Part shown: positions 28,018 through 64,000 of the stretch, piece after piece | How the letters are laid out: the number at the start of each line of letters is the position of its first letter | Position numbering within the stretch: the first letter of the stretch is position 1 | From: Algibacter mikhailovii | GTDB lineage: Bacteria > Bacteroidota > Bacteroidia > Flavobacteriales > Flavobacteriaceae | Reading direction: 5' to 3' | Assembly: GCF_014651495.1 (NCBI RefSeq) | Contig: NZ_BMWZ01000001.1 | Coordinates: 436,575-500,574, forward strand | DNA: 64,000 bases | The notes under the pieces: model-generated | Told to the model about the DNA's origin: nothing | What the model saw: the letters and a program-made list of their open reading frames with translations, nothing else | The model's database searches: none | Program-made: the position numbers and the translations under genes

Positions 28018-28392
28018 ATGAAACTTATCCAGCGTATAGGTTACTATCTTGGCGGCTTTTCCTTAGGATTAATTATTTTGGCCTTTTTTCTAAACGGAAA
28101 AAAGACATCTTGCAGTTATGGTCCAGAATCAAGAGTTTTAAAGAATATTACTTCTAAAAAAATTATAACGACAAATCATGCCAATAAGGTTATTAAAAGC
28201 ATATCTATTGATTCGAACTTAATACGTTCTATCATGAAGAAAGGTGATATTGATTTTTCAAAAAGTGATCCAAGAAATAAGCCCTGCGGAATTTATTTGA
28301 TAGAAGGTCAATTAAAGGAGCAAAACCTATTAATTACTATTGAAAATTGCGATAGTATTGCAACCATTACAGATTTTAAAATCTTAAAGTAA
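28018..28392 (+). CDS. DUF4258 domain-containing membrane-anchored protein
   Basis: The 124-residue protein has one N-terminal membrane segment (IGYYLGGFSLGLIILAFFL) and a small domain with SIDSNLIRSIMKKGDIDFSKSDPRNKPCGIYLIEG and ENCDSIATITDFKIL, matching DUF4258 proteins that I recall beside alanine dehydrogenase in Flavobacteriaceae. Function unknown. Its stop overlaps the start of the sugar transferase gene by one base (TAATG), so it is cotranscribed with the first polysaccharide gene. Confidence 0.72.
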   Translation: MKLIQRIGYYLGGFSLGLIILAFFLNGKKTSCSYGPESRVLKNITSKKIITTNHANKVIKSISIDSNLIRSIMKKGDIDFSKSDPRNKPCGIYLIEGQLKEQNLLITIENCDSIATITDFKILK

Positions 28393-28985
28393 TGCTGAAA
28401 CGAGTATTTGACTTTGTGTTTTCAATACTTGGTTTAGCACTGTTATCACCCATTCTACTCATAATCAGCATACTTATTAAACTTGATTCAAAGGGTCCTG
28501 TTTTTTTTAAACAGGAGCGCGTTGGTAAAAACAATATAAACTTTGTAATCTATAAGTTTCGTACTATGCGTATTCAATCTGATAAAAAAGGCTTACTTAC
28601 TATTGGAAACCATGATTCCCGTATTACAAAAATTGGCTACTTTTTACGACGTTACAAAATTGATGAATTCCCTCAATTGATTAATGTGGTTAAAGGAGAC
28701 ATGAGCTTTGTTGGACCAAGACCTGAATTAAGGCACTACGTTAATTTCTATTCTAAAAGCGATATGGAAATTTTTACGGTGAGACCTGGTATTACAGGAT
28801 TAGCCTCTCTAAAATATCGAAATGAAGTAGAACTATTAAAGGCAGCTAAAGACCCGGAAAAACTTTTTATTGAAACTATTATACCTGATAAACTAAAATT
28901 TAATAAAGAATACATTAAAAAACAAAGTTTCCTTTTTGATTTAAAGCTCATAATCCAAACAGTTTTTAAAGTAATTTCAAAATAA
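28392..28985 (+). CDS. Initiating sugar phosphate transferase (PglC/WcaJ-type monotopic phosphoglycosyl transferase)
   Basis: The 197-residue protein is a small monotopic PGT. It has one N-terminal hydrophobic re-entrant helix (FDFVFSILGLALLSPILLIISILI), then KLDSKGPVFFKQERVGKN, FVIYKFRTMR, YKIDEFPQLINVVKGDMSFVGPRPE, which contains the catalytic Asp-Glu pair, and VRPGITGLASLKYRNE. It transfers a sugar phosphate from a UDP-sugar to undecaprenyl phosphate, starting repeat-unit synthesis. The short PglC-like form often prefers UDP-bacillosamine-type or related amino sugars, which fits the dehydratase and aminotransferase genes in the locus. Confidence 0.92.
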   Translation: MLKRVFDFVFSILGLALLSPILLIISILIKLDSKGPVFFKQERVGKNNINFVIYKFRTMRIQSDKKGLLTIGNHDSRITKIGYFLRRYKIDEFPQLINVVKGDMSFVGPRPELRHYVNFYSKSDMEIFTVRPGITGLASLKYRNEVELLKAAKDPEKLFIETIIPDKLKFNKEYIKKQSFLFDLKLIIQTVFKVISK

Positions 28986-29078
28986 GAATAGCCACAAGCT
29001 TGCCATAAAATTGAAATATACTTACATTAGGATTTATTTTGTTTTTAAAATTTATAATGCATTGATACCTTTATTTAA

Positions 29079-30158
29079 ATGAATAATACAACCGCAAGTC
29101 ATATAGACTATTTAATAAACAACTGTGGTGTATTCTCCTCAAAACTAGATCAAAAAAATCATATATATGATCTGGACTTTTCAAATGAAAGTATACTTAT
29201 TACGGGAGCGGCAGGAACTATTGGCTCGGGACTTACAAAACAACTCATACATTGTAAATTCAAAAAGCTTATCCTTTTAGATATTGCTGAATCACCAATG
29301 TATGCCCTAATTAAAGATTTAGAATTTCACAATACTAATAATATTGAATATATAATATTAAACATTACAGATTACAAAGCATTGGAATGTCTTTTTGAAA
29401 AGCATAGGCCTACATTAGTGTTTCATACTGCTGCCTATAAACATGTTCCTTTGATGGAACAAAACCCACATGAGGCCATAAAAACTAATGTTTTTGGCAC
29501 AAAATTCCTTGCCGATTTATCAATAGAACATAAGGTTAAAAAATTTATTTTTGTCTCTACAGATAAAGCTGTTGATCCTGTTAGTATTATGGGGATTACA
29601 AAAGCCATTGGCGAGAAATATTTGAAATTTTTAAATTCTAAAAGCAAAACTTTCTTTGCAATAGCAAGATGTGGAAATATTATAGGATCGAATGGCTCCT
29701 TTTTACAAGTTCTAAAAAATCAAATAGAATCAAATCGCACTATTACGATTACAGATAAAGAAGTATCAAGGTTTTTTATCACTCAACAATCTGCCTGTGA
29801 TTTAATTCTAAGGATATCGACTTTCGAACATACAGAAAATGATACTTTCATTTTGAAAATGGGTGCACCGCTTAAAATTACAGATATTGTAAATAGAGTT
29901 TTATTGCATTACGGAAAACCTGATACAAAAGTAAATTTTAAGTATACTGGACTAAGAATGGGTGAGAAATTACATGAAAAACTAATTTCAGAAGATGAAA
30001 GTTTGAAGCCTTCAATAAATAAAAATATATTAATTATCGAACACAAAAAAAAGATGGAGTCGAAAGCTATTAAATTTTCCGAATTAGAAGCTATAACTGC
30101 ATTTGATTTAAACTCTAAAGTTAAAACAATCTTAGAAAATTTTCACAAAACCTTATAG
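29079..30158 (+). CDS. Soluble CapD/FlaA1-type nucleotide-sugar 4,6-dehydratase/epimerase
   Basis: The 359-residue extended SDR protein has no membrane helices. It shows ILITGAAGTIGSGLTKQL (NAD loop, about residues 35-52), VFHTAAYKHVPLMEQNPHEAIKTNVFGTKFLA and VSTDKAVDPVSIMGITKAIGEKY, with Met in place of the usual catalytic Tyr of SDRs, as in WbpM/FlaA1 (an Ser-Met-Lys triad), and GLRMGEKLHEKL near the end. It is a shorter paralogue of the membrane-bound protein at 35900-37849. It probably converts UDP-GlcNAc to a 4-keto-6-deoxy sugar. It follows the sugar transferase and its 3' end overlaps the convergent proline dehydrogenase gene by 6 bases. Confidence 0.85.
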   Translation: MNNTTASHIDYLINNCGVFSSKLDQKNHIYDLDFSNESILITGAAGTIGSGLTKQLIHCKFKKLILLDIAESPMYALIKDLEFHNTNNIEYIILNITDYKALECLFEKHRPTLVFHTAAYKHVPLMEQNPHEAIKTNVFGTKFLADLSIEHKVKKFIFVSTDKAVDPVSIMGITKAIGEKYLKFLNSKSKTFFAIARCGNIIGSNGSFLQVLKNQIESNRTITITDKEVSRFFITQQSACDLILRISTFEHTENDTFILKMGAPLKITDIVNRVLLHYGKPDTKVNFKYTGLRMGEKLHEKLISEDESLKPSINKNILIIEHKKKMESKAIKFSELEAITAFDLNSKVKTILENFHKTL

Positions 30159-31328
30159 CTGTTTTCTGCGTTTTTTTTCAGCGCTAATCAGAGCCAATTC
30201 TCGTCCTGTTTGCCCGGCAACAGATGTATTCTCTTCAGCCCTGCGTATTAAATATGGCATAACATCCTTGACAGGTCCAAATGGCATGTATTTGGCTACA
30301 TTATATCCAAGATGGCTTAAGTTATAACTAATATGGTCACTCATACCATATAATTGCCCAAACCAGACCCTAGGATCATTATTTAAAACACCTTTTGCCG
30401 ACATTAATTCCATTAATAGGTAGGAGCTATCTTCATTATGTGTTCCTGCAAAAAGGGACATACAATCTAAATGATCCATTACATAATGTAATCCATTATT
30501 GAAATTCTCATCGGTAAGTGCTTTTGTAGCACATATGGGAGATTCATAGCCTTTATCGTTAGCTCTTTCATTCTCCTTTTCCATATAAGCACCACGAACT
30601 AATTTGAAACCGAGAAAATAATTACCTGCTTTCGCCTTTTTATACTCCTCTTCTAAAAATTGTAATCGATCATGTCTATACAGTTGAATGGTATTATAAA
30701 CAACCGGTTTTTCAATATTATACTTCGCCATCATCTGCGTAACAAGTACATCAGCAGCTGGTTGAATCCAGCTCTCTTCGGCATCAATAAGCACGGCTAC
30801 ATCAATAGTTTTTGCTTTTTGGCATACCCTATCAAACCTATCTACAACTCTGTTCCATTCATTTTGTTCATCCTTTGTCAAATTAATACCTTGACTTACT
30901 TTTTCATATAGACTGAATCTTCCAAAACCAGATGGTTTAAAAACCGCAATAGGAATGGCTTCAATCGCTTTTGCAAAATCAATAATTTTTAAAACCTTAC
31001 TTACGGCTGAATCAAACTCTTTCTCATTATCCTTACCTTCTACAGAATAATCTAAGACTGAACTAACGCCTTTAGTATACATCTTGTCAATGACAGATAA
31101 GCAATCTTCTTCATTTACCCCTCCACAAAAATGATCAAAAACAGTAGACCTAATTAAGCCCTCAATTGGGAGATGGGCTTTTAAAGCAAAATTTGTTGCA
31201 GCTGTCCCAATCCTTACCAAAGGTTCTATGGAAATCATTTTAAACAAAAAATAAGCACGTTCTAATTCTGAATCCGTCTTCAATGTAAAGGCTATTTCAG
31301 TATTATCAAATATTAAATCTGTATTCAT
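30153..31328 (-). CDS. Proline dehydrogenase (PRODH, single-domain)
   Basis: The 391-residue flavoenzyme oxidises proline to pyrroline-5-carboxylate. It shows the PRODH barrel motifs VLDYSVEGK, VFKPSGFGRFSLYEKVSQG, LIDAEESWIQPAAD, FKLVRGAYMEKE, FAGTHNEDSSYLLMEL and the C-terminal YMPFGPVKDVMPYLIRRAEENTS. It lacks the P5C dehydrogenase half of PutA, which is usually separate in Bacteroidota. It is divergent from aroB, with 83 bases between. It has no visible link to polysaccharide synthesis and, with aroB, interrupts the locus. Confidence 0.93.
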   Translation of the reverse strand: MNTDLIFDNTEIAFTLKTDSELERAYFLFKMISIEPLVRIGTAATNFALKAHLPIEGLIRSTVFDHFCGGVNEEDCLSVIDKMYTKGVSSVLDYSVEGKDNEKEFDSAVSKVLKIIDFAKAIEAIPIAVFKPSGFGRFSLYEKVSQGINLTKDEQNEWNRVVDRFDRVCQKAKTIDVAVLIDAEESWIQPAADVLVTQMMAKYNIEKPVVYNTIQLYRHDRLQFLEEEYKKAKAGNYFLGFKLVRGAYMEKENERANDKGYESPICATKALTDENFNNGLHYVMDHLDCMSLFAGTHNEDSSYLLMELMSAKGVLNNDPRVWFGQLYGMSDHISYNLSHLGYNVAKYMPFGPVKDVMPYLIRRAEENTSVAGQTGRELALISAEKKRRKQL

Positions 31329-31411
31329 TTTTACTAAATATAATTATTGCTAAGTTATCATTTTATCCAAAATCTCCTTAATTTCACAGTCTCAAAATTA
31401 AAAAAAATATC

Positions 31412-32482
31412 ATGGATTCTATTTCGGCGAATGATAGCTTCATTCATTTCAACAAAAAATGCTATCATGCTTTAAATGAGCATCTTAAAAAAAATAATTT
31501 TTCAAAAATTTTCATATTAGTTGATGAAAATACACATCAACATTGTTTACCAATTTTTATAGATAAAATAGAAACAAATGTTGCTATTGAAATTATTGAA
31601 ATTGAATCGGGAGAAGAAAACAAAAATATAGATACTTGTGTTGGTGTTTGGAATACGCTCTCAGAATTAAATGCTGACAGAAAAAGTTTGATGATCAATG
31701 TGGGCGGTGGCGTAATAACAGATTTAGGTGGTTTTGTTGCTTGTACATTTAAAAGAGGTATTGCATACGTAAACGTACCTACAACACTATTGTCTATGGT
31801 TGATGCATCTGTAGGAGGAAAAACTGGTGTCGATTTGGGCGTTTTAAAAAACCAAATAGGTGTTATAAGCAATCCAGATTTAGTACTTATTGAAACACGT
31901 TTTCTCAACTCTTTACCGGTAAATCAAATGCGTTCTGGTTTAGCTGAAATGTTGAAACATGGTTTAATAACTGGAGAATCTTATTGGAATAAATTTCTTG
32001 ATCTTTCTAAACTTTCTTTAGATGATTTAGATGAACTGATTTATGAATCCGTAATCATTAAAAAAAATGTTGTGCTTCAAGATCCTTTTGAAAATGGATT
32101 GCGTAAAACATTAAATTTTGGTCATACTCTTGGCCATGCTATAGAATCTTTTTATTTAAGTGACCCTAAAAAACCGACCTTACTGCATGGTGAGGCCATC
32201 ATTATTGGAATGATTTTGGCTTGTTATATTTCGACAGAATTAGTCGGATTTCCTAAAGAATCAACTTTAGCCATAAAAGATTTATTTACAAATTATTATG
32301 GTCATACTAATATAGATAAAAATGATTATGCAAGTATTATTGACTTGCTTAAATATGACAAGAAAAATAATCACGGAAATATTAATTTTGTGCTTTTAGA
32401 ATCAATAGGAAAGTGTAAAATAGACTGTATTGTTCCCGAAGAAGTAATTATTGATGCTTTTAATTTTTATGCTTTAAAATGA
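31412..32482 (+). CDS. aroB: 3-Dehydroquinate synthase
   Basis: The 356-residue enzyme of the shikimate pathway turns DAHP into 3-dehydroquinate with NAD and a divalent metal. Signature stretches are VGGGVITDLGGFVACTFKRGIAYVNVPTTLLSMVDASVGGKTGVDLG, EMLKHGLI, and the metal-site HTLGHAIE and LHGEAI histidines. All are intact and length is normal. It is followed by a strong bidirectional terminator, so it is likely monocistronic. Confidence 0.96.
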   Translation: MDSISANDSFIHFNKKCYHALNEHLKKNNFSKIFILVDENTHQHCLPIFIDKIETNVAIEIIEIESGEENKNIDTCVGVWNTLSELNADRKSLMINVGGGVITDLGGFVACTFKRGIAYVNVPTTLLSMVDASVGGKTGVDLGVLKNQIGVISNPDLVLIETRFLNSLPVNQMRSGLAEMLKHGLITGESYWNKFLDLSKLSLDDLDELIYESVIIKKNVVLQDPFENGLRKTLNFGHTLGHAIESFYLSDPKKPTLLHGEAIIIGMILACYISTELVGFPKESTLAIKDLFTNYYGHTNIDKNDYASIIDLLKYDKKNNHGNINFVLLESIGKCKIDCIVPEEVIIDAFNFYALK

Positions 32483-32586: not shown

Positions 32587-34977
32587 TTATGACATGTACT
32601 TTTTTAAACGTCCAAAAAAAGTTCTTTTTCCAGTATTTTCATAATATCCGTACTTACCGCCATATCCAAAATTTGATTGCTTTACATCATTGACTACAAC
32701 CATCATATTGTTCAACTTTTTATCAGCATGTAACTCTTTAGCAAAATTCAAAAGTGGCTTTTCAGTATAATCTGCTCGAATCACATACATGGTATAAGCG
32801 GCATACTCACTTATTAGCAAAGTATCCGTGACCATCATGGAAGGAGCAGTATCTACAACCACATAATCATATTCTTCCGAAACTGTATCAAACAATTCTT
32901 TAATCTTATCACTCAAAAGTAATTCTGCCGGATTTGGAGGAATACTTCCTGAGGGTAAAATATCTAATTGTAAATCATTTATAGAATGTGAAGTAATAGC
33001 GTCCTTCAATTGGTAAGTATTATCACTAAGGTATTCCGACAACCCTATTTTTGAAAACTTCTCCTTTTTTATAGTACTCTTTAAAGATGATAATATTTGA
33101 GGGTTTCTCAAATCAGCACCAATTAATAATACCTTTTTACCGGTATTTGAAATTGTAAGAGCTGTATTTACACTAGTAAAAGATTTTCCTTCACCATTTA
33201 TGGTAGAAGTAACAAAAATTATATTCTTGTATTTTTTAGCCTCGGCATGACTTCTACTAATATGTCTGAAATTAGTTCTTATAATTCTAAAGGACTCTGA
33301 TAAAACAGATCTATCGTTGCGCTTTATTAGTTTAACTTCTTTAGAGGCAAGTTTAGGAATTTCACCAAGTATGTGTAAGTTTTTAAGAGCTCCTTCTATA
33401 TCTTCTCTATTATGAATCTTAGTATCAAGTAAACTATTAACATAAATAAATCCAAAAGGAATACATAATCCAAATATAATGGCTGCTAGATAAACTATCT
33501 TAACTTTTGGAGACACTGGTATCCCGCTAGAATGAGCCATATCGATAATTTTTGCATTAGCCGCTGAAGATCTTAATGATATTGTAGCTTCTTCTCGTTT
33601 TTGTAATAGAAATAGATACAGCGATTCTTTAATACCCTGTTCCCGTTCTATATCTCTTGATTTTCTAACTTGACCTGGTACTGAAAAAATTTTAGAACTT
33701 AATCGCGCAGATTGATTTTGTAGACTACGTATCCTCAGTTGAACTGTTTCGGCTGAATTATCTAAAGCTTGATGAAGTCCTGCTTTCAAATTATTAATTT
33801 CTTGATCCAAATTAACAATGATGGGGTTTTTTTCATTTGAGCTTTTTAATAGACGCTCTCTATCATCTAAAAGTTGATTATATCGGACAGCCATATTGTT
33901 TATTGAGGCATTACTCAAACCCACATTAAATGGAATACGCTCAGAAACATTATCATCAATTTGTGCCCTCATGTAATTCACCATATTTAATTCTGTCCTA
34001 CTAGCAGCCAGTTGCTGTTCTGTTTCAGAATTAGTCCTAATATATATATCTGCTTCTGAGGTGATATCCGTTAATTTATTTCCTGTTTTAAACTGCTCTA
34101 CTTCATCATCAACAGCGGACAAATCACTTGAAATCAAATTTATTCTTTTGTCAATAAAATCTGCTGTATTGGTAGCCACTAAGGTCTTTTCTTCTATTCC
34201 AACTCTATTGTATTCATCTATGAGCGTGTTTAATACCGCTTTGGCACGTACAATAGAATAATCATTCAAAGATAAATTGATGACTTTAGAAAACTCGTCT
34301 GCTGCAGTAATACCAATCTTAAATTGAAATGCTGCTGCTAAATTTTCTACTGGTAATATGTTAACATGAACTAATTTTTCCTTTAAACTTATAATATTTT
34401 CAGTATTTGGTGTAATCACAATATCACCTATGGGAGTAGAAATACTGTTACCAAAAGAACTTTTTTTAACAATTTCTTCGGATCCATTATAAGGAGCATA
34501 AATAAAATTAAAAGTTGTATTGGAGGTTACAGCTAAATCAAAACTAAATTGACTTTGATTTATGATTGAATCGGATTCTATAAAACTTACACTAACGGGT
34601 GCTTTTGAATTCGGAAAAAAATGTGTATCGTGCAATCTACCTGTAAGAGAATATTGAATATTCAAATCCAATTTCTCAATAACACCTTTCATCAATTTTC
34701 TTGACTGCAATATTTCAATTTCATCTTCAAGAGCCTTACGAGCCGTTACATTACCTTTTCCTAAATCCTGCAATAATGCGCCAGCTGGGGTAGATGATGC
34801 ATCTTCCATAGTTAGCATTATCTTTGCATTTGCATTGTATTCTGGGGTGGAATACCTTAATTTAAAGAAAGCCAATACTATGAAAACAAAACAACTTAAA
34901 ACAAACCATTTCCATTGTCTCGCATAAGGCTTAAGAGTTTTTTTTAAATCAAACTTTTCTTGGTTTAAATGTCTCAT
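32587..34977 (-). CDS. Wzc-like polysaccharide co-polymerase with BY-kinase domain
   Basis: The 796-residue inner-membrane protein has an N-terminal Wzz domain with a first membrane helix near residues 22-42, a long coiled-coil periplasmic part, a GNVR-type region, a second helix (IVYLAAIIFGLCIPFGFIYV) and a C-terminal tyrosine kinase. The kinase shows TSTINGEGKSFTSVN (Walker A), VLLIGADLRNP (Walker A') and YDYVVVDTAPS (Walker B). Five tyrosines lie in the last about 30 residues (FGYGGKYGYYENTGK.., KKYMS), the usual autophosphorylation cluster. It controls polymerisation and export with the Wza-like protein encoded 51 bases upstream. Confidence 0.95.
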   Translation of the reverse strand: MRHLNQEKFDLKKTLKPYARQWKWFVLSCFVFIVLAFFKLRYSTPEYNANAKIMLTMEDASSTPAGALLQDLGKGNVTARKALEDEIEILQSRKLMKGVIEKLDLNIQYSLTGRLHDTHFFPNSKAPVSVSFIESDSIINQSQFSFDLAVTSNTTFNFIYAPYNGSEEIVKKSSFGNSISTPIGDIVITPNTENIISLKEKLVHVNILPVENLAAAFQFKIGITAADEFSKVINLSLNDYSIVRAKAVLNTLIDEYNRVGIEEKTLVATNTADFIDKRINLISSDLSAVDDEVEQFKTGNKLTDITSEADIYIRTNSETEQQLAASRTELNMVNYMRAQIDDNVSERIPFNVGLSNASINNMAVRYNQLLDDRERLLKSSNEKNPIIVNLDQEINNLKAGLHQALDNSAETVQLRIRSLQNQSARLSSKIFSVPGQVRKSRDIEREQGIKESLYLFLLQKREEATISLRSSAANAKIIDMAHSSGIPVSPKVKIVYLAAIIFGLCIPFGFIYVNSLLDTKIHNREDIEGALKNLHILGEIPKLASKEVKLIKRNDRSVLSESFRIIRTNFRHISRSHAEAKKYKNIIFVTSTINGEGKSFTSVNTALTISNTGKKVLLIGADLRNPQILSSLKSTIKKEKFSKIGLSEYLSDNTYQLKDAITSHSINDLQLDILPSGSIPPNPAELLLSDKIKELFDTVSEEYDYVVVDTAPSMMVTDTLLISEYAAYTMYVIRADYTEKPLLNFAKELHADKKLNNMMVVVNDVKQSNFGYGGKYGYYENTGKRTFFGRLKKYMS

Positions 34978-35028: not shown

Positions 35029-35802
35029 TTAATTTCTAGTGTAAATTATTACAGCTGAAGTTATAAGCAAGGATATAAACGAAACAATTACGGCAGTTCT
35101 ACTATCCATATATGAAGCAGTAATCGCAGATTTATTAGGTTCTATATACACCACATCATTTTGTGTTAAATAATAAACTGGTGAATTAAACAACTCCTTA
35201 GTTCTCAAGTCAACTCGAGTATATGTTTTAGTCCCATTAAAATCTCTAATTACCAAAACGTTATCTCTTCTGGCCTTTATCTTTAAATCTCCTGCTAAGG
35301 AAATGGCTTGTAATAGCGTCATTCTACCTCCAGCCACAGCATAATTGCCCGGTTTATTGACCTCACCAAGTACAGAAATATTGAAATTCAAAATCCGAAT
35401 ATTAATTACTGGATCCTTAAGATAGTCAGAAAGCTTATCTTTCAATAATTCTTTGGCCTCTTCGACACTAAGACCTAAAAGCTTTATCTTACCTAAAACA
35501 GGATAATCAATGTTTCCCTCCTCATCAATTAGATAATCAACATATTCTAACCTTCCAGTATTTGATTGTCCTTTCCTTAAATTAAACGCCTCGACAGCAG
35601 AAAGATCCAAGGTAGATACAAAGATACTTATGACATCATTTACCTTGAATAGAGGAGTAAAAGAATTCGTTTCAACTGTTGTTTCAAAATTTTCAGCATT
35701 TTGAAAGTATACCACTTCTTCTGAAGAACCACATGAAGCCAAAAAGGCTGAAAGTAAAATAATACAAAATTTAAAATACTTTGTTATAAATATTTTATTC
35801 AT
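35029..35802 (-). CDS. Wza-like polysaccharide export lipoprotein
   Basis: The 257-residue lipoprotein (signal ending in SAFLASC, Cys about residue 24) has a poly-export domain (FKVNDVISIFVSTLDLSAVEAFN.., YLIDEEGNIDYPVLGKIKLLGLSVEEAKELL) and one SLBB domain (INIRILNFNISVLGEVNKPGNYAV). The C-terminal hydrophobic helix IVSFISLLITSAVIIY could cross the outer membrane. It is shorter than E. coli Wza (about 380), as usual for Bacteroidota. It forms the outer-membrane exit of the polymer and is directly upstream of the Wzc-like gene. Confidence 0.93.
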   Translation of the reverse strand: MNKIFITKYFKFCIILLSAFLASCGSSEEVVYFQNAENFETTVETNSFTPLFKVNDVISIFVSTLDLSAVEAFNLRKGQSNTGRLEYVDYLIDEEGNIDYPVLGKIKLLGLSVEEAKELLKDKLSDYLKDPVINIRILNFNISVLGEVNKPGNYAVAGGRMTLLQAISLAGDLKIKARRDNVLVIRDFNGTKTYTRVDLRTKELFNSPVYYLTQNDVVYIEPNKSAITASYMDSRTAVIVSFISLLITSAVIIYTRN

Positions 35803-55284: not shown

Positions 55285-56400
55285 ATGAAAAAAGGTATAA
55301 AAGACATAGCTAATTTAACGTACTTAAATTCTATTTTGATTTATTCATCTTTGAAGGCCTATAACTATTTTACGAAGTTATCACATGCTGCAAAATGGAA
55401 AAACAAGTCAAAAAAATTAATTGACATAAGTGCTGCCAATAAATTATCAAGGGAACAGGAAGATAAAATTATTGGATATTATAAAAATCTGGGTTTTGGC
55501 CATATTAACTTTAATTGGCATAGGTTTTATACGAATTCCAATAAACAATTTTCTGTCAGTTATGTTCCTGAGGATTTATTTTATATGAAAATTGAACCAC
55601 GTTTAAATAAAACCAATTTAACCAAAGCTTTAGCTGATAAAAACTTACTGGACACTATTTTTAAAGATATAAAACAACCTAAAACCGTTATAAAAAATAT
55701 TAATGGATTTTATTACGACTGCGAAAATCTAATTACTAAAGAAATAGCCCATAAAAAATGTGAAAATCAAAAATTAATTATTAAACCAACTATAGAAGCT
55801 GGAGGCGGTAAAAATGTTAATGTTTTTTATACTCATAACGGTGATACTGATTATAAGGATTTTAGTATTGACAAACTTTTTAAAAATTATGATAAGGATT
55901 TTATTGTACAAAAAATAGTAAAACAACATCCTAAAATGAAACAGTTAAATAGTACTTCTTTAAACACTTTTAGGGTAATGAGTTTTTTAAAGGGCACCTC
56001 TGTACAAATTCTATCTATTGTAGTACGTATGGGTAAGGAAGGCTCTATAACTGACAATTCAGCGACAGGAGGTATTGCTTGTGGTGTTAATGAAGACGGC
56101 ACACTTAACGCTATCGGATTTGAAAATAATACTGGAGGCGCTCATACAAGTACCGATGCTGGAATTCCATTCAATCAAATAACACTTCCATTTATTAACG
56201 AAATTAACACTTTGGTTAACAAAATGCATAAAAAAGTGCCCTATTTTCGATTGATTTCTTGGGACTTGGCCGTTGATGAATCGGGTCAATTAGTCTTTGT
56301 CGAATATAATATACATGGGCAAGGTGTAAATATTCATCAGTTAAACAATGGTCCTGTATTAAAAGATATTCTTGAAGAGTCTAGCAAAATAAAAGACTAA
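55285..56400 (+). CDS. Sugar-transfer-associated ATP-grasp protein
   Basis: The 371-residue protein resembles the ATP-grasp family found in polysaccharide clusters (ATPgrasp_ST type, from memory). It has SREQEDKIIGYYKNLGFGHINFNWHRFY in the N-terminal part, QKLIIKPTIEAGGGKNV (ATP-binding Lys and Gly-rich loop), LNTFRVMSFL, VRMGKEGSITDNSATGGIACGVNEDG, and RLISWDLAVDESGQLVFVEYNIHGQG, which contains the metal-binding acidic residues. ATP-grasp enzymes join a carboxylate to an amine or thiol through an acyl phosphate. With a locus that makes several uronic acids, amidation of the sugar carboxyl is possible but unproven. It precedes an MBOAT-SGNH pair. Confidence 0.82.
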   Translation: MKKGIKDIANLTYLNSILIYSSLKAYNYFTKLSHAAKWKNKSKKLIDISAANKLSREQEDKIIGYYKNLGFGHINFNWHRFYTNSNKQFSVSYVPEDLFYMKIEPRLNKTNLTKALADKNLLDTIFKDIKQPKTVIKNINGFYYDCENLITKEIAHKKCENQKLIIKPTIEAGGGKNVNVFYTHNGDTDYKDFSIDKLFKNYDKDFIVQKIVKQHPKMKQLNSTSLNTFRVMSFLKGTSVQILSIVVRMGKEGSITDNSATGGIACGVNEDGTLNAIGFENNTGGAHTSTDAGIPFNQITLPFINEINTLVNKMHKKVPYFRLISWDLAVDESGQLVFVEYNIHGQGVNIHQLNNGPVLKDILEESSKIKD

Positions 56401-56505: not shown

Positions 56506-57948
56506 ATGCTATTTAATTCTATAGATTTTGCAATTTTTTTGCCCATTGTTTTTCTCCTTTATTGGTTTGTAACACAAAGAAATTTAAAATCACAAAACCT
56601 ATTAATAATTATAGCTAGTTATCTATTTTATGGTTGGTGGGATTATAGATTTTTGGCTCTAATTATTTTTAGTAGTTTGCTAGATTACTCCATAGGTTTA
56701 GGGCTTAGTAAATATGAAGAAAAAAGAAAGCGTAAAGCTCTATTACTTTTAAGTTTGTTTGTTAATCTAGGTTTTTTAGGTTTTTTTAAATATTACAATT
56801 TTTTTCTTGAAAATTTTATAGATGCATTTAGTTTATTTGGCAATAAGATAAGTATTCAAGGACTTAATATCATTTTGCCTGTAGGAATTAGTTTTTATAC
56901 TTTTCAAACCCTTAGCTATACTATTGATGTTTACAAGAAAAAGTTGGAACCAACAAAAGACATTATATCGTTTCTCGCTTTTGTTAGTTTTTTTCCTCAG
57001 CTTGTTGCGGGCCCAATAGAAAGAGCCTCAAATCTACTTCCGCAATTTTATAAAAAAAGAAAGTTTGTCTATTCTCATGCCGTAGATGGAATGAGACAAA
57101 TTCTTTGGGGTCTTTTTAAAAAAGTAGTGATCGCAGATAACTGTGCAACTTTTGCCAATCAAATTTTTGATAATTATTCTGATAATTCGGCAAGTACCCT
57201 ATTTTTTGGAGCTATGTTTTTTACTTTTCAAATTTATGGGGATTTTTCTGGTTATTCGGATATTGCCATTGGAACGTCTCGTTTGTTTGGTTTTAATTTG
57301 ATGAGAAACTTTGCATTCCCCTATTTTTCTAGAGATATTGCTGAATTTTGGAGGCGTTGGCATATATCTCTATCTACTTGGTTTAGAGATTATTTATATA
57401 TTCCTCTTGGTGGAAGTAAGGGCGGGTTAGTAAAAAAGGTTACAAATGTATTTATAATCTTTATTGTAAGCGGGTTTTGGCATGGAGCCAATTGGACTTT
57501 TATCATCTGGGGAGCTCTAAATGCTTTATACTTTATTCCTATAATGTTAATGAAAAAAAACAGAGTTAACACCAACAATGTAGCTGAAGGACGCTTGTTT
57601 CCAACTTTTGTTGAGTTTAGGCAAATTGTTTTTACTTTTTTACTCACAATGATCGCATGGGTGTTTTTTAGGGCGCCTAGTGTTGCGGATGCTTTTCTTT
57701 ATTTAAAAGGGATTTTTAATAATAGTATTTTTACTGTTCCTGATAAATTTAATAATTGGTTAATAACATTATGCTTTATTTTTGTTTTGGTGTTCATTGA
57801 ATGGCTCCAAAGAGAAAAAGAACATACTTTAGAATTGCAAAACACTAATATTCCAAGTTACCTTCGTAGGAGTTTTTATTTAATTATATTTTTTACCATA
57901 TTTTGGTTTGGAGGTTCTCAGCAAGATTTTATTTATTTCCAATTCTAA
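56506..57948 (+). CDS. MBOAT O-acyltransferase (AlgI-like), copy 2
   Basis: The 480-residue polytopic protein is a close paralogue of the minus-strand copy at 45248-46681. The central 150 residues agree almost throughout, including SFYTFQTLSYTIDVYKKKLEP, EFWRRWHISLSTWFRDYLY and VSGFWHGANWTF with the catalytic His. Differences cluster in the first loop, the residues around 180-225 and the C-terminal third. It lies on the opposite strand 10 kb away and is likewise followed by an SGNH-type gene (15-base gap). It moves acyl groups to the periplasm for polymer modification. Confidence 0.95.
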   Translation: MLFNSIDFAIFLPIVFLLYWFVTQRNLKSQNLLIIIASYLFYGWWDYRFLALIIFSSLLDYSIGLGLSKYEEKRKRKALLLLSLFVNLGFLGFFKYYNFFLENFIDAFSLFGNKISIQGLNIILPVGISFYTFQTLSYTIDVYKKKLEPTKDIISFLAFVSFFPQLVAGPIERASNLLPQFYKKRKFVYSHAVDGMRQILWGLFKKVVIADNCATFANQIFDNYSDNSASTLFFGAMFFTFQIYGDFSGYSDIAIGTSRLFGFNLMRNFAFPYFSRDIAEFWRRWHISLSTWFRDYLYIPLGGSKGGLVKKVTNVFIIFIVSGFWHGANWTFIIWGALNALYFIPIMLMKKNRVNTNNVAEGRLFPTFVEFRQIVFTFLLTMIAWVFFRAPSVADAFLYLKGIFNNSIFTVPDKFNNWLITLCFIFVLVFIEWLQREKEHTLELQNTNIPSYLRRSFYLIIFFTIFWFGGSQQDFIYFQF

Positions 57949-57963: not shown

Positions 57964-58854
57964 ATGAAAAATTTCTTTAGTAATTGTTTGAAGTTATTAG
58001 GACTATTTTTATTAATATGCCTGAGCGCTCTAATATTTAATTCCTTCCTGATAAATCATTTCTATAATGGTTACAAAATAAACAAAGAACAAAATATTTT
58101 AATATTAGGCGATTCTCACACAGAACACGCTATTGATGATAATATTTTTACAACAAGTCTCAATTTATCACATAGTGCCGATTCTTATTTTTACTCATAT
58201 TTGAAATTAAGAAAAATAAAAAAAGAAAATCCACAGATTGATAAAGTTCTATTAGGATTGTCAAATCATAATTTGTTTATTGAATACGAAGATAGATGGC
58301 TTTTTAATACTTCCCGTATTAAAAGTAAATTAAGAATTTATATGGATTTAATGAATTTCTCTGAATTTTTGTTTTTATTTAAATCAAATCCTTCAGGAGT
58401 CATACAAGGTTTTATTGAATCTCCAAAATATTCAATAAAACTGATAATTAAGGGAGGTGCTTTAAAGGAAAGAGATTTAGGAAGGTTTCAATCTTCTCAA
58501 AGAAATAGCTTAAAGGAAGCCATTAATCGTATTAAAAAGAGTAAGAAACAAAGGGTTCTAGAATATTCAAAAATAGAAACTGAATATTTGTTTAAAATTG
58601 TTGATTTCTGTAACAAAAACAATATTGAACTAATCTTTGTTAGTACACCTTTACACCCTGAATACACCAAAAGAAAAGAAAACGAATTTCAATTATTAGA
58701 TGAATTTTATAGTTCAAGCCTATCTCAGTTTAAATTTTTTAATTGCTCTAAATTTGATCTTTCTGATGGTTATTTCCAGGATTTGGACCATTTAAATGAC
58801 AAGGGAGCTAAATTATTTACATCATACTTAATGAAAAAATTGGATGATAATTAA
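57964..58854 (+). CDS. Membrane-anchored SGNH-like protein, partner of MBOAT copy 2
   Basis: The 296-residue protein has an N-terminal membrane segment (LKLLGLFLLICLSALIFNSFLI). A periplasmic domain follows with NILILGDSHTEHAID (block I, GDS with adjacent His) near residue 45 and QDLDHLNDKGAKLF near the end, which gives the Asp and His of an SGNH-type triad. It shares topology but little sequence with the partner of MBOAT copy 1 at 44313, so the two pairs probably modify different positions or sugars. It is cotranscribed with the MBOAT gene. Confidence 0.78.
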   Translation: MKNFFSNCLKLLGLFLLICLSALIFNSFLINHFYNGYKINKEQNILILGDSHTEHAIDDNIFTTSLNLSHSADSYFYSYLKLRKIKKENPQIDKVLLGLSNHNLFIEYEDRWLFNTSRIKSKLRIYMDLMNFSEFLFLFKSNPSGVIQGFIESPKYSIKLIIKGGALKERDLGRFQSSQRNSLKEAINRIKKSKKQRVLEYSKIETEYLFKIVDFCNKNNIELIFVSTPLHPEYTKRKENEFQLLDEFYSSSLSQFKFFNCSKFDLSDGYFQDLDHLNDKGAKLFTSYLMKKLDDN

Positions 58855-59380: not shown

Positions 59381-60475
59381 ATGAGTAAAAATAAAATTTC
59401 GTTTATTATTGGAACACTGGGTGCAGGAGGTGCAGAACGTGTAGTCACAACACTTTCAAATGAACTTGTAGAGAACTACGACGTTCATATTATATTACTC
59501 ACAAAATGTGAACCTTTTTACAAGCTTAACACTCGAGTTAAGTTGTATTTTTGCCGGGAAGCATATAAACCAAGTAATAATATTTTTCAAGCATTAAAAG
59601 GCAATTATTCTCTATATAAAACTATATCTGGTTACTTAAAAAAAGAAAAAATAAATTTAGCCATAGGTTTTATGACGGGTGCGAATAATTTAGCGATTTT
59701 AGCGTCTCGAAAAAATAATATTCCTTGTATAATTAGCCAAAGGATTTATTCGAAAAAATCAAGCACTAAACTTTCAAACCGGGTTATAAGAAATTTCTTA
59801 TACCGAAAGGCAAGTTTTTTAGTCGTTCAAACTACTGAAATTAAAGCTGAATTTGAATCCATACTTGAAAGCAACAAAATAGTTATTTTAAAAAATCCCA
59901 TTTCACCAGAACTATCTGAAGCTCGTGATGTCGAATTTAAGAAAGAAAACATCATTTTAAACATTGGACGATTATCAAGTCAAAAAGCGCAAGATGTTTT
60001 GATTAGAGCTTTTGCCAATATAGAAAATGAAAATTGGAAATTAATAATAATTGGGAAAGGAGAAAAGCAAAAAAACTATGAAGCATTAATCGATGAGTTG
60101 AATTTAAAGAAAAAAGTAGAGCTAATGGGTCGTTCAAAAGATATAGCTCATTATTATAATAAATCTAAAATATTTGCTTTCACATCCATTTTTGAAGGAT
60201 TCCCAAATGCACTAACAGAAGCTATGCATTTTGGATTGCCATGTATCTCTACAGACTGTCCCACAGGTCCTTCAAAATTAATAAATAATAATCATAATGG
60301 CTATCTAATACCAATGGGTGATCAAAAACAGTTGGAGCATTGTTTATCAAGTCTCATTCAAAATAAAAACTTAAGAGACAAGTTTGGAAGCAATGCTCGT
60401 AAAAGCGTGCAATCCTATAAAGCTGATGCTGTTACTTTGGAGTGGATTGGTTTATTTGAAAAATTACTAAATTAG
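59381..60475 (+). CDS. Glycosyltransferase family 4 (GT-B)
   Basis: The 364-residue enzyme has the GT4 layout: ISFIIGTLGAGGAERVVTTLSNEL at the N-terminus (the GAGGAER acceptor loop), NIGRLSSQKAQDVLIRAFANI, and the donor site FTSIFEGFPNALTEAMHFGLPCISTDCPTGP with the EGFPN..E motif. The sequence style resembles PglH/PglJ-type GalNAc transferases, which fits a locus that makes UDP-GalNAc-related sugars, but the donor cannot be fixed. It starts a run of glycosyltransferase, flippase and polymerase genes with gaps of 13 and 1 bases. Confidence 0.92.
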   Translation: MSKNKISFIIGTLGAGGAERVVTTLSNELVENYDVHIILLTKCEPFYKLNTRVKLYFCREAYKPSNNIFQALKGNYSLYKTISGYLKKEKINLAIGFMTGANNLAILASRKNNIPCIISQRIYSKKSSTKLSNRVIRNFLYRKASFLVVQTTEIKAEFESILESNKIVILKNPISPELSEARDVEFKKENIILNIGRLSSQKAQDVLIRAFANIENENWKLIIIGKGEKQKNYEALIDELNLKKKVELMGRSKDIAHYYNKSKIFAFTSIFEGFPNALTEAMHFGLPCISTDCPTGPSKLINNNHNGYLIPMGDQKQLEHCLSSLIQNKNLRDKFGSNARKSVQSYKADAVTLEWIGLFEKLLN

Positions 60476-60488: not shown

Positions 60489-61823
60489 ATGAATTATTTT
60501 GATTTGAAGAAACAGGTGCTGAATTACTCAAAAAGCACTGTGCTAAAAAATATTCTTTTAGTAGGAGGCTTAACTATAGTTGTTAAGTTGCTAAGTTTCT
60601 ACAAAGAAACGGTTGTGTCTTCATCTTTTGGATTATCTGAATTATTAGATACTTATTTTATTGCAATGCTTATTCCAGGTTTTATTAATAATGTATTTAT
60701 TGGTGCTTTTGGAAGTGTTTTTATCCCAAACTATATTCAGGCATCCAAGACTGAGACCGATTTAAAAGCTTTTCAATCAACTGGTTTTATAATTACATTA
60801 TCTGTATCCAGTATTTTTACCTTAATAGCCGTATTATTTACTGATTTTTTTCTTGAAAATTTTTTCAGTGGTCATTCAGCTTCCTACTATGAATTAATTA
60901 AGTTACAATTTTATTATGTAGTTCCATGTATCTTTATTTGGGGATTGGGTTCATTATTAAGAGGGTTATTATACGTTAATAATGAATTTAGTAAACCAAC
61001 ACTAATTGGTGTTATCACTCCTATAACATTTATTGTTTGTATTTATTTTTTTAAAGATCAATTAGGACAAAAAGTACTAGCAGTCAGTTCACTAATTGGC
61101 GCTTTTATCAATTTTCTATTTTTACTGTATATAGCGTACAAAAAAAATATAATTAAATTATCTAAACCTGATTTTAATAATCCAAATATAAAAACAATGT
61201 TAAAACAAGTCCCAGCAAAAGTTTCTTCTGGGTTTTTAACAGGTCTTATACCCGCAACAGATCAATATTTCGCAGCGAAATTAGCTATTGGTTCCATAGC
61301 TGCTTTAAATTATGGGCTTAAAGTCCCTCTTTTTCTTACTTCTATACTAATAGTATCGCTTGGTAAAGTTTTACTCCCACATTTTTCAAAGATCGTTATT
61401 GAAGATAAAAAATCGGCCTTTAAAAAGCTTTTTTCGGCTTTAAAATACCTGTTTCTAATCACATCATCTGCAGCCGTTCTCCTCATTATTGTAACTCCGT
61501 GGATAATTGAACTGCTATTTGAACACGGGGAATTTACAGCAGAAAACACAAAAACAGTTTCTCAAATACAAATTATATTTTTAATTTACACTCCCTTTGC
61601 TGTATGTGGTATGGTTATAGTAAAATTCTTAACCAGTTTGAATGAAAATAATTTTATGGCATTGGTATCGTTAATTGGTGTTTCCCTTAATGTCGTTTTT
61701 GATTTAATTTTTATGAAATATTATGGCCTTTACGGCATTGCTCTTGCTACTACTGGGGTTATGATAATAAGAACATCAATATTATATAAATACACTTTAA
61801 ATCTTAAACACAAAATAAATTAG
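60489..61823 (+). CDS. MurJ/MviN-type flippase, probable Wzx of the locus
   Basis: The 444-residue protein belongs to the MOP/MviN fold. It has about 12 predicted helices and motifs such as VVSSSFGLSELLDTYFIAMLIPGF (TM1 and the following loop), FGSVFIPNYIQA and LFEHGEFTAENTK, the conserved loop of MurJ-like proteins. True MurJ has 14 helices and about 510 residues, so this shorter version in a polysaccharide cluster is better read as a lipid-linked oligosaccharide flippase (Wzx role). The ATG at 60489 follows the glycosyltransferase stop by 13 bases. Confidence 0.85.
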   Translation: MNYFDLKKQVLNYSKSTVLKNILLVGGLTIVVKLLSFYKETVVSSSFGLSELLDTYFIAMLIPGFINNVFIGAFGSVFIPNYIQASKTETDLKAFQSTGFIITLSVSSIFTLIAVLFTDFFLENFFSGHSASYYELIKLQFYYVVPCIFIWGLGSLLRGLLYVNNEFSKPTLIGVITPITFIVCIYFFKDQLGQKVLAVSSLIGAFINFLFLLYIAYKKNIIKLSKPDFNNPNIKTMLKQVPAKVSSGFLTGLIPATDQYFAAKLAIGSIAALNYGLKVPLFLTSILIVSLGKVLLPHFSKIVIEDKKSAFKKLFSALKYLFLITSSAAVLLIIVTPWIIELLFEHGEFTAENTKTVSQIQIIFLIYTPFAVCGMVIVKFLTSLNENNFMALVSLIGVSLNVVFDLIFMKYYGLYGIALATTGVMIIRTSILYKYTLNLKHKIN

Positions 61824-61824
61824 T

Positions 61825-62973
61825 TTGAAAAAAATATTAAGAATACTCATACTTATCTTTGTTTTGTGGAATTTCGATACGTTTTCACTTTTTTTTATAA
61901 GCCCGGTTATAGGAGGTATTGTTAGTTATTTAACAATTTTTTTATTACTAGTTTATTTCATATTATTTGTTGAAGATTATGGCAAGCCACTTTTCCCTTT
62001 CTTACTCCTTGGAATTTCATATTACACTATAGGTGGACTTAATTTTACACAAGTTAGTATTGACGATTTTCTTAAAAATTATATTAAGTATATACTGGTT
62101 GTATTATGCTTTACAGAATTGGTCAAAGACACTAAAATAGAAGAAATATATATTCTCTTTCTTTTCGGGGCAGGTAGTATTCTTATTCATGCTGTTTTTT
62201 TTTCAAATACTTTTATAATGGGCACAGAGAACTATGGCAGGTACAGTGGTTTCTATTTAAACCCGAATGCAGCAGGTTCTATTTGTCTTTATGGCTTTAG
62301 TCTAAGCTATATTATAAAAAACACTAAACTCAAACTATTTGGTCAACTTCTTTTTTCTTTAGCGGGACTATTAACCATGTCCAGATACTTTATTTTAATT
62401 TGGGTACTTATCAATATTATTGCGGTAGTTATGAATAGAAAAAATTTAGTTACGCCTGTTTTGGGTTCAATAGCTCTTATTTTTGTTCTGGTTTCAGGTA
62501 CCATATCACTTAATTCATCTAGATTTGGTGCTCTTGAAAGTCTTTTTAATGATGAAAAAGTTAAAACAAAAGTAATAAGTAATGATAGTAGAACCGAGAC
62601 TTGGGCCACCTACACTGACATTATATTGGACAAACCTTTTTTTGGAAATGGGTATCCTAAATTGCATGGTAATCATTTTGGGTTAACAGCTGGAGTTCAT
62701 AATTTTTATTTACTCATACTTGGTGAAGCTGGTATAATTCCTTTTTTCATTATTTTATGGATTGTCTTTTTCCTAATAACCAAGGCTATTAAGCATTATA
62801 AAAATAATTTATCTTTTTTATTTTTAACAATTACTATTACATCAGGTTTACTGGTGGCGCATACTGGTTTTGATAATTTTAAGCTGATATTTATGATGAT
62901 ATTTTTGTATTTAAATTTTCAGAATCTAGAAAACAGACAGATTAATGTAAATAAACCAACCTTATTATCTTAG
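61825..62973 (+). CDS. Wzy-type O-antigen polymerase/ligase
   Basis: The 382-residue polytopic protein has about 11 hydrophobic segments and a large periplasmic loop near residues 240-290 (NDSRTETWATYTDIILDKPFFGNGY..), the hallmark of the Wzy_C/O-antigen ligase superfamily. The start appears to be TTG at 61825, one base after the flippase stop; the first ATG comes only after several helices. It should join repeat units delivered by the flippase. Wzy proteins diverge strongly, so sequence alone gives no linkage information. Confidence 0.85.
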   Translation: MKKILRILILIFVLWNFDTFSLFFISPVIGGIVSYLTIFLLLVYFILFVEDYGKPLFPFLLLGISYYTIGGLNFTQVSIDDFLKNYIKYILVVLCFTELVKDTKIEEIYILFLFGAGSILIHAVFFSNTFIMGTENYGRYSGFYLNPNAAGSICLYGFSLSYIIKNTKLKLFGQLLFSLAGLLTMSRYFILIWVLINIIAVVMNRKNLVTPVLGSIALIFVLVSGTISLNSSRFGALESLFNDEKVKTKVISNDSRTETWATYTDIILDKPFFGNGYPKLHGNHFGLTAGVHNFYLLILGEAGIIPFFIILWIVFFLITKAIKHYKNNLSFLFLTITITSGLLVAHTGFDNFKLIFMMIFLYLNFQNLENRQINVNKPTLLS

Positions 62974-63098
62974 AAGAAAATCATATTTATTTGTTGCTAA
63001 CCTTAACCTTCATATAATTGTCAACGTTTAATAATTTTTTATGACAGGCGAAGAGTTACTTGATCTTGGAAAAACAAACTCATCAAAAATTTAATGAA

Positions 63099-64000
63099 AT
63101 GAAAAATTCACTAAAATATTTATACAAAAAAACAACAGTTGGACATTATATTATATCAAAACTTATTCGCGTAAATACTTTTTATTTACACTATATTAAA
63201 CCTGAAAAAAAATACTTAACAGATATTTTTGAGCGTAGATATGGTAGAAAAATAGATTTAAACAAGCCAAAAACGTTGAATGAGAAGATTATCTGGTTAA
63301 AACTGTATGACAGGACACCTTTGCACACTATTTGTGCTGATAAATATGGTGTAAGGGCTTACATTGAAGAAACGATTGGCGATAATTATTTAGTACCACT
63401 GTTGTACATGACTAAAAATGTGAAGGACATAACTCCTGAGAATTTACCCAACTTCCCATTAATAATAAAAACTAATCACGATAGCTCTGGTGGGGTATTT
63501 GTTTATGATAAGACTAAAATTGATTGGAATGAAACTAGATCTAGTCTTAAAAAACGATTAAAAAAGAATTATTATCCACAAAGTAAAGAATGGCAATACA
63601 AAAATATAGATCCTTGCATTATAGTGGAAAAGCTTCTGATAGATAAAAACGGAAATATTCCTAATGACTATAAAGTTCATTGTTTTAATGGCAAAGTTAA
63701 TATGATTTCAGTAGATGTTGGTCGTGATTCAGATGATCATTATAGAAATTGGTACAATGCAGAATGGCAAAGAGAACCATATGCATGGTCTTCTTCAAAA
63801 GGAGAAGGAAAAAAAACTGACCCTTCAGATGAAGACGTTGATAAACCATTAACTCTTGATGAAATGATAGTTCTTTCTGAAAAATTATCTAAACCTTTCT
63901 GTTATGTAAGGGTTGATTGGTATGATGTAGATGGCAAATTATATTTTGGAGAATTAACGTTCCATCATGATGGGGGCATGAAGCCTATTCTACCTGAAAA
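63099..64000 (+). CDS. TupA-like ATP-grasp protein, C-terminus outside the window
   Basis: At least 300 residues are open to the window edge. They follow the TupA-type ATP-grasp fold: KPKTLNEKIIWLKLYDRTPLHTICADKYGVRAYIEE, NFPLIIKTNHDSSGGVFVYD (ATP-binding Lys and Gly-rich loop), CIIVEKLLIDKNGNIPNDYKVHCFNGKV and VRVDWYDVDGKLYFGELTFHHDGG (metal-binding acidic residues). The namesake acts in teichuronopeptide synthesis, where uronic acid polymers are joined to peptides (from memory). It is the second ATP-grasp enzyme of the locus. The ATG at 63099 was chosen because the frame at 63094 stops at once. Confidence 0.85.
   Translation, partial: MKNSLKYLYKKTTVGHYIISKLIRVNTFYLHYIKPEKKYLTDIFERRYGRKIDLNKPKTLNEKIIWLKLYDRTPLHTICADKYGVRAYIEETIGDNYLVPLLYMTKNVKDITPENLPNFPLIIKTNHDSSGGVFVYDKTKIDWNETRSSLKKRLKKNYYPQSKEWQYKNIDPCIIVEKLLIDKNGNIPNDYKVHCFNGKVNMISVDVGRDSDDHYRNWYNAEWQREPYAWSSSKGEGKKTDPSDEDVDKPLTLDEMIVLSEKLSKPFCYVRVDWYDVDGKLYFGELTFHHDGGMKPILPE

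Follow-up and report, generated by a model that had tools for sequence, protein, structure and literature searches.

Does a locus that builds an exopolysaccharide (EPS) also encode the exported enzymes that act on it? A 64,000-nucleotide stretch of the 4.4 Mb genome of Algibacter mikhailovii (contig NZ_BMWZ01000001.1, positions 436575-500574; hereafter the window) raises this question, as its genes for polysaccharide assembly are interspersed with those for two exported beta-helix proteins: a lipoprotein with a PL1-like lyase domain (46826-48820) and a protein bearing the sorting domain of the type IX secretion system (T9SS; 39846-43274). We consider it probable (roughly 0.68) that this is a Wzx (MurJ)/Wzy-type EPS or capsule locus for a galacturonic-type, acylated and possibly amidated polymer, and that exported enzymes acting on this polymer are among its own products. 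The computed basis of this reading is the gene content, the recurrence of the enzyme families near EPS genes, the kept catalytic arginine, the separation of the PL1 domains, the shared leader and the exchange of catalytic modules.

Genes were named from Pfam and NCBIfam profile scans of 30 proteins, which recovered every gene class that a first-pass annotation of the window had listed: transferase, dehydratases, aminotransferase, Wza/Wzc, flippase, polymerase, MBOATs, ATP-grasps and the two beta-helix proteins. The joint presence of an initiating transferase, a MurJ-type flippase, Wzy, Wzc and Wza identifies a Wzx/Wzy-dependent pathway.

A putative PL1-type lyase and its lineage

The lipoprotein is built of a leader (SCNNEELF), a Big_9 stalk (residues 67-158), a PL1-like domain (residues 168-664) and an acidic tail. 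A single-sequence search of the PDB returned nothing for it, while a 10-row profile of the lyase domain matched PfPL1 (9buj, 1.8e-67), VexL (6fi2, 1.5e-22) and 3zsc (2.6e-13), so that the PL1 relationship is visible only with a profile. Arg220 of PfPL1 is named as the proton-abstracting residue in the published description of that enzyme (PMC11229556), and Arg411 of the window protein aligns with it (chain position 220, HMMER alignment). This arginine is kept in all 29 PL1 domains from EPS loci, the window included, and in 20 of 21 others. For a further catalytic arginine described in PMC11229556 the alignment gave no secure position. Judged from these alignments, the lipoprotein is predicted to be a beta-eliminating lyase of PL1 type with Arg411 as its putative catalytic residue. 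Most of the weaker matches to the lipoprotein were rejected as relatives, as they covered the Big_9 stalk alone.

We placed 50 PL1 domains in a tree. For 27 of them the view held three or more EPS genes; two more, each with two such genes, were also counted as EPS; the remaining 21 had no EPS genes around them and are classed by that absence alone. Twenty control regions had been picked, mostly by rank, from PL1 matches not near a TviB-like gene, and three of them (L137, L146, L147) proved EPS-like. The EPS label requires two changes on the tree against a mean of 16.3 after shuffling, with none of 500 shuffles as low, and 20 of the 21 non-EPS rows form one group, the exception being L131, whose view ends at a contig end. 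PL1 domains of EPS loci thus group apart from those found elsewhere, and the window domain falls in an EPS-only group of eight (SH-aLRT 100). EPS rows also have longer end branches (median 0.67 vs 0.25) and a lower median identity (35% vs 47%). This divergence is like that of the specificity-bearing Wzy (40%), GT4a (43%) and MurJ (45%), and unlike that of the precursor enzymes (TviB-like 75%, Ugd 75%, Epim1 71%). A Mantel comparison in which PL1 tracked Wzy and glycosyltransferases was set aside: the Wzy and GT4b correlation vanishes without Winogradskyella, and because this genus drove it we do not rely on it.

Recurrence beside EPS genes

We searched 199 genomes with profiles of both families (E up to 1e-10 for the tailspike-like helix, up to 1e-20 for PL1), scoring the best few candidates per genome. 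The helix family matched in 31 genomes and the PL1 family in 47. A member lies within 25 kb of a TviB-like gene in at least 17 of the 31 (0.5 expected) and at least 15 of the 47 (1.1 expected), counts not reached in any of 200,000 simulations. These figures bear out the first-pass proposal of an acidic-polymer locus with lyase-like exported proteins of its own. Together the two families occur near a TviB-like gene in at least 28 of the 156 genomes that have one, with G000, G021, G110 and G189 in both sets, and leader-bearing genes within 25 kb (see below) add nine genomes (G018, G019, G061, G070, G126, G152, G172, G182, G184), giving at least 37 of 156. The same annotation had named, as grounds for dropping its proposal, homologous loci consistently devoid of the secreted proteins; no such consistency is seen, yet most of these genomes do not show them in the searches made here.

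EPS genes surround the helix in nine of the 11 genomes of the first helix set. Among 46 loci in named genomes, 17 are from Flavobacteriaceae, including Winogradskyella, Zobellia, Maribacter, Cellulophaga, Aquimarina, Euzebyella, Pareuzebyella, Cerina and Confluentibacter, and 16 of these have two or more EPS genes. In the other 29, four or more EPS genes were found at loci from Caballeronia (L099, L103), Mucilaginibacter (L096) and Holophagaceae (L093), and many, e.g. from Paenibacillus and Lentisphaerae, yielded no EPS genes with the queries used.

A shared leader with exchanged catalytic modules

The leader, SCNNEELF in the window and SC-[ST]-K-D-[ST]-D-L-L elsewhere, occurs on many EPS-locus lipoproteins of both beta-helix families; the T9SS proteins carry no such leader. 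In the 199 genomes the EELF form gave 18 matches (one for the reversed-pattern control), 12 of them within 25 kb of a TviB-like gene. Of the 18, three are chance matches in short frames, and the other 15, all lipoprotein leaders, precede two PL1-like proteins, 12 tailspike-like proteins and one kelch-type protein, which has no EPS genes around it. For the DLL form there were 17 matches, spread over 15 genomes (control 3); each is in frame and preceded by a signal peptide of lipoprotein type, and 16 lie within 25 kb of a TviB-like gene. Eight of these (in G184, G172, G126, G152, G182, two in G018 and one in G129) were unseen when the pattern was written; all eight lie within that distance and provide an independent test of EPS proximity.

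This placement bears on whether the lyase might be nutritional, serving the use of pectin or algal polyuronides and standing beside EPS genes by chance. Flavobacteria degrade pectins. The characterised PL1_2 members described in PMC11229556 are pectin lyases, which is in keeping with such a role. The 16 of 17 DLL leaders close to a TviB-like gene speak against it, as do the separate grouping of EPS-locus PL1 domains in the tree and the lack of SusC/SusD-type families among the 30 proteins scanned, and we regard a nutritional role as very improbable.

The cargo behind the 17 DLL leaders is diverse: seven PL1-like, two tailspike-like, four probable alpha/alpha, one PF14099 polysaccharide-lyase domain (32.2 over 29.9) and three others that are beta-helix-like by eye (L188, L189, L192; Pfam under cut-off or empty). 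The alpha/alpha call (L185, L186, L190, L191) comes from weak profile matches, the best 2.3e-6 over 39 positions, to GH76 and six-hairpin glycosidases. The four proteins concerned (L185:8317-9753, L186:10092-11657, L190:9847-11319, L191:9785-11401) share the DLL leader and Big_9 stalk with 39-56% identity to L185; their catalytic part has no Pfam domain over cut-off and is a candidate new lyase or glycosidase family.

Exchange is clearest in the L068 and L111 proteins, which share residues 1-515 and 1-487 (51% identity, E=2.65e-156) and differ in catalytic family: one ends in a tailspike-like domain (4.6e-153), the other in a PL1-like domain (4.2e-117), and the PL1-like protein also gives a faint hit with the helix profile (1.4e-7). 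Within the source genus, the EELF leader stands on a tailspike-like protein in G017 (L197) and on PL1 in the window. Across the family, different catalytic modules stand behind a leader and stalk that are retained. A stronger form of this statement, with the lyase domain far less conserved than the leader half, was rejected: in three relatives the values are 35-37% for the lyase domain and 41-46% for the leader half.

We tentatively propose a cassette in Flavobacteriaceae in which a conserved leader (C-x-K-D-[ST]-D-L-L or C-N-x-E-E-L-F) and stalk would deliver an interchangeable EPS-depolymerase. The leader would serve as a tag specific to EPS, for addressing or docking, and the enzyme would be swapped in step with the evolution of the polymer and so report its linkage. 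Its cargo might range over PL1 beta-helix, tailspike-like beta-helix, probable alpha/alpha-type and PF14099-type lyases, with the cell's own EPS exporter or surface as a possible target, a proposal that we place somewhat below even odds. Instead, recombination at conserved 5' ends could have left the leader behind as a mere remnant, its motif being a common lipoprotein export signal (LES) that has no EPS-specific role; we hold this to be a serious possibility, if short of an even chance. The motif resembles the LES of Bacteroidetes, C-X-K-(D/E)2-X, in which, as described in PMC5080379, a polar or basic residue and then an acidic pair follow the lipid-bearing cysteine; the CNNEE of the window has the acidic pair, but Asn rather than Lys at +3. 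Long shared N-terminal blocks such as that of L068 and L111 are also what such recombination would leave. An ordinary signal fits less well with the added L-F or L-L of the leader described here and its position mostly beside EPS genes in these scans (28 of the 35 matches to both forms within 25 kb of a TviB-like gene, one or two per genome where found), or with its information content: in 32 leaders, which were selected for showing the motif, columns 4, 6, 7 and 8 after the cysteine carry 3.2-3.6 bits, against mostly 0.8-2.3 for the part of the signal peptide that precedes Ser(-1).

The T9SS beta-helix protein: enzyme or binder

The second exported protein combines an N-terminal right-handed beta-helix with three malectin domains and a C-terminal Por_Secre_tail (43.5 over 27; TIGR04183 41.3 over 23), which marks it as T9SS cargo; we set its start by eye at an internal ATG before the signal peptide, the listed open reading frame beginning at 43316. 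The helix part (41937-43235) was modelled from 33 rows at pLDDT 90.6. Its nearest matches in a sequence-profile search are phage proteins (crAss001 gp22, 1.3e-22; Fri1 tailspike 6c72, 9.7e-8), and the viral predicted structures that match it include tail spikes, the best hit (4.2e-15) being an unnamed protein. In VIA-align the top rows are the epimerases AlgE6 and AlgE4 (Z 37.4-36.8; AlgE6 at 2.6 A over 348 aligned residues), and RbmB scores Z 35.4 (2.3 A, 332 aligned, 13% identity). On these model comparisons the protein is most likely a beta-helix enzyme (lyase, C5-epimerase or hydrolase) with malectin sugar-binding domains.

The beta-helix proteins might, however, have a structural role, binding the polymer without cleaving it and holding it to the cell with malectins and helix as anchor. 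The union of three malectin domains and a T9SS tail on one protein would suit an anchor, and Foldseek lists the adhesin PfbA for the helix. An Asp occupies position 206 in 14 of the 16 distant stretches aligned there and in at least 90% of the 33 profile rows; because the window has Gly there, its copy may be inactive, perhaps only a binder. For the families as a whole, binding alone is hard to reconcile with the unbroken PL1 arginine in EPS loci, with a leader that also carries a PF14099 lyase domain and a family weakly matching GH76 and six-hairpin glycosidases, or with the helix family, in which, gaps being scored as misses, Asp145 persists in 17, Arg175 in 18 and Glu208 in 16 of the 20 distant stretches that were aligned. 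We therefore judge a purely structural role unlikely.

Polymer-active exported enzymes remain the preferred reading, and the most likely course of events can be outlined. The precursor genes would supply UDP-linked donors of the galacturonic acid (GalA) and N-acetylgalactosaminuronic acid (GalNAcA) type, a polymer content that we infer from enzyme families; the MurJ-type flippase would flip the repeat unit across the membrane, and after polymerisation by Wzy the product would pass out through Wzc and Wza. MBOAT/SGNH pairs would acylate the polymer, and ATP-grasp and FemAB-like enzymes may attach amide-linked groups. The leader probably anchors the lipoprotein lyase to the external side of the outer membrane. 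Once the cell's own polymer has left through Wza, this lyase, and perhaps also the T9SS helix protein, would shorten it, set it free or remodel it, which may fix chain length or loosen the matrix. Exchange of the catalytic module would presumably match a changing polymer.

Several observations, besides the glycine at position 206, weigh against this reading. The structural model of the PL1 domain is poor (pLDDT 60), its best Foldseek match being nonetheless PfPL1 (E=1.3e-9), and the exact place of the window domain in the tree is unsure because of its long branch (2.0). When Winogradskyella is left out, the only matrix correlations to persist are those with MurJ (r 0.38, p 0.027) and GT4a (0.29, p 0.039), both uncorrected. 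At least six exported proteins of the set have no leader motif (L050, L052, L061, L063, L115, L119). Most of the 156 genomes with a TviB-like gene show neither family nearby, and in 14 of 31 and 32 of 47 matching genomes none of the TviB-like genes listed has a member within 25 kb, some members being on other contigs. Strong helix matches in G195 and G019 (L053, L054) have no EPS genes within 20 kb, nor does L083, of Flavobacteriaceae, show any, and G017, of the same genus as the window, has no PL1 match.

Acylation and amidation-type genes

The first-pass annotation had joined acylation, amidation-type enzymes and lyase into one system. In 55 loci (the window included, picked for the exported enzyme or its leader and mostly seen in 20-kb views), MBOAT genes were seen in 16 and ATP-grasp genes in 19. 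The two co-occur in only two of the 55, so that one joint system of the three is not supported; acylation and amidation form no fixed set and are ordinary and mosaic across loci. The two MBOAT-SGNH pairs that it had described hold for the MBOATs, which are of AlgI type by their PF03062 match and hit DltB structures at E=1.4e-23, and for the GDS and D..H motifs present in both SGNH partners; by profile the partners are weak, that at 57964 passing the DltD cut-off (Table 1) and that at 44313 having only a sub-threshold NERD match (21.4 vs 22.1). Placed on either side of the lyase and uronate genes, the two MBOAT genes make up a long inverted repeat (834 nt, 73%); two MBOAT matches also occur in G163 (L056).

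The TupA-like assignment comes from the copy right of the window (locus L008), which matches PF14305 with 171 bits. The tandem TupA-like genes (63060-64000 and L008:861-1841) are near-identical over their last ~114 aligned residues, a pattern that looks like gene conversion. The one query with an ATP-grasp protein found no solved relative. In five genomes, including same-genus G017, four to six GNAT-like matches stand in a row near a leader-bearing tailspike-like gene (L193-L197).

Locus extent and gene inventory

One Wzx/Wzy-type EPS (or capsule) locus extends from Wzc at 32587 to gcvT, ~16.5 kb beyond the right edge of the window. The span of 28392-64000 given by the first-pass annotation thus needs revision on both sides: the housekeeping genes for proline dehydrogenase and 3-dehydroquinate synthase (30153-32482) split off a left transferase/dehydratase pair, which may lie outside the locus, and in the relative L056 a dehydroquinate synthase gene likewise adjoins Wzc. 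The initiating transferase inside the locus proper is right of the window (L008:11065-11685). A search in that direction for more glycosyltransferases, which the annotation had advised, paid off: beyond 64000 there are three GT4s and a second initiating transferase, together with one further copy each of TupA and ATPgrasp_ST, a PylC-like ATP-grasp, proteins of FemAB and GNAT type and, recognised by motif only, a third SGNH-like protein.

Table 1. Polysaccharide-related features of the window (window positions).
Feature	Position	Strand	Basis
Initiating transferase	28392-28985		PF02397, 212 bits
Short dehydratase, partner of the preceding transferase	within pair 28392-30158		Pfam, PF02719
Wzc-type chain-length regulator/tyrosine kinase	32587-34977	-	Wzz, GNVR, AAA_31
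Wza-type outer-membrane export lipoprotein	35029-35802	-	Poly_export, SLBB
Long UDP-sugar 4,6-dehydratase, WbpM/PglF type	35900-37849	-	PF02719
DegT/DnrJ aminotransferase	37846-39021	-	LegC-like, under cut-off
T9SS-exported beta-helix, three malectin, Por_Secre_tail	39846-43274	-	Pfam, model
SGNH-like membrane-anchored protein, likely MBOAT partner	44313-45245	-	GDS, D..H motifs; no family over cut-off
MBOAT O-acyltransferase 1, DltB/AlgI type	45248-46681	-	PF03062
Lipoprotein: leader SCNNEELF, Big_9 stalk, PL1-like lyase domain, acidic tail	46826-48820	-	
NAD-dependent nucleotide-sugar epimerase, candidate UDP-glucuronic acid 4-epimerase	49851-50873	+	Pfam, NCBIfam
Candidate TviC-like C4-epimerase of UDP-N-acetylglucosaminuronic acid	51033-52016	+	under NCBIfam cut-off
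UDP-glucose 6-dehydrogenase type, TuaD-like	52302-53681	+	under NCBIfam cut-off
TviB-like UDP-N-acetylhexosamine 6-dehydrogenase	53705-54985	+	under NCBIfam cut-off
Sugar-transfer-associated ATP-grasp (ATPgrasp_ST)	55285-56400	+	PF14397
MBOAT O-acyltransferase 2	56506-57948	+	Pfam; 68% identical to MBOAT 1
SGNH/DltD-like acyl-transfer partner	57964-58854	+	DltD 24.8 over 22.7
GT4-like glycosyltransferase	59381-60475	+	by eye and similarity, without Pfam scan
MurJ-family flippase, Wzx role	60489-61823	+	PF03023
Wzy_C polymerase	61825-62973	+	Pfam
TupA-like ATP-grasp, runs off the window	63060-64000	+	76% identity to L008:861-1841, without Pfam scan

The uronate genes, which provide for two UDP-uronate routes, are relatives, not equivalogs, of the Vi-antigen and TuaD enzymes, with NCBIfam scores of 533 against a cut-off of 592 for TviB, 400 against 760 for TviC and 354 against 700 for TuaD. 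The source genome has a second TviB-like gene with one internal TAG (G000:C12:45145-46389). No Rfam match was found in window positions 26000-64000. Three gaps of 0.8-1.0 kb (39022-39845, 43317-44312, 48821-49850), with no open frame longer than 71 residues, adjoin the exported-protein genes. Short open frames between a GT4 gene and the second initiating transferase (L008:8593-10400) resemble, by eye, pieces of a pyridoxal-phosphate enzyme and a FemAB-like gene, and so decayed genes within the locus.

Significance and comparison with known systems

Self-lyases in EPS loci are already known (RbmB, WceF, VexL), and for this reason the locus is not of a new kind. What is new, and would be unexpected to a specialist, is that different enzymes can be exchanged behind one and the same leader, whose sequence serves as a predictive tag; in open-licence PMC text, where the leader motif was not queried, we found nothing on EPS loci whose lyases are swapped behind a common anchor. 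A testable rule follows, namely that the exported enzyme of a locus should cut the polymer of the same locus. If true, this would yield specific depolymerases for EPS of unknown structure and allow polymer chemistry to be predicted from the enzyme, with the leader as a sequence tag for finding new lyase families. It would also link bacterial self-lyases with phage tailspike-like folds that encounter polymers of the same sort.

PfPL1 of Pseudoalteromonas fuliginea (PL1_2) is the best solved relative of the lyase domain and has the catalytic arginine in common with it; unlike the window lyase, it is described as encoded in a pectin-degradation locus (PMC11229556). The top structural neighbours of the T9SS helix are, as noted, alginate-type AlgE epimerases. 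MBOAT/SGNH acylation resembles AlgIJX of alginate producers; a processive alginate synthase (Alg8/44) was absent from the 30 proteins scanned, and the Wzx/Wzy pathway is present here.

The VexL gene is situated in the Vi locus, which the window locus resembles in its TviB and TviC relatives. VexL of Achromobacter denitrificans (PL1 subfamily 13) is, like the predicted window lyase, of PL1 type, and it comes from a producer of a GalNAcA polymer; it is reported to be a depolymerase of an organism that makes Vi antigen, with a structure determined in complex with an alpha-1,4 GalNAcA trisaccharide (PMC11229556, PMC9597891). VexL is described as periplasmic and Vi as exported by an ABC transporter, whereas no ABC transporter was found among the 30 proteins scanned, which hold Wzy, Wza and Wzc instead, and the window enzyme has a lipoprotein leader.

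The first-pass annotation knew of no counterpart to its combination of genes, yet Vibrio cholerae offers a parallel: its Vibrio polysaccharide (VPS) is reported to carry N-acetyl groups, partial O-acetylation and amide-linked glycine, and to be cleaved by RbmB from the same biofilm gene cluster (PMC11637428). RbmB (9ozd, 9ozl) is thus a beta-helix lyase acting on an O-acetylated, glycine-amidated acidic EPS and resembles the modelled T9SS helix in fold, differing from it at the sequence level; the malectin and T9SS parts and the separate PL1 lipoprotein are features of the window locus. WceF, from the stewartan cluster of Pantoea stewartii, which includes wzc, is like the proteins here a phage-tailspike-like enzyme of an EPS cluster; its mutation is reported to enlarge stewartan, and it is Tat (twin-arginine translocation)-secreted, not a lipoprotein like the window enzyme (PMC7949094). 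By analogy, WceF, RbmB and VexL are the nearest tested precedents for the remodelling of a cell's own polymer.

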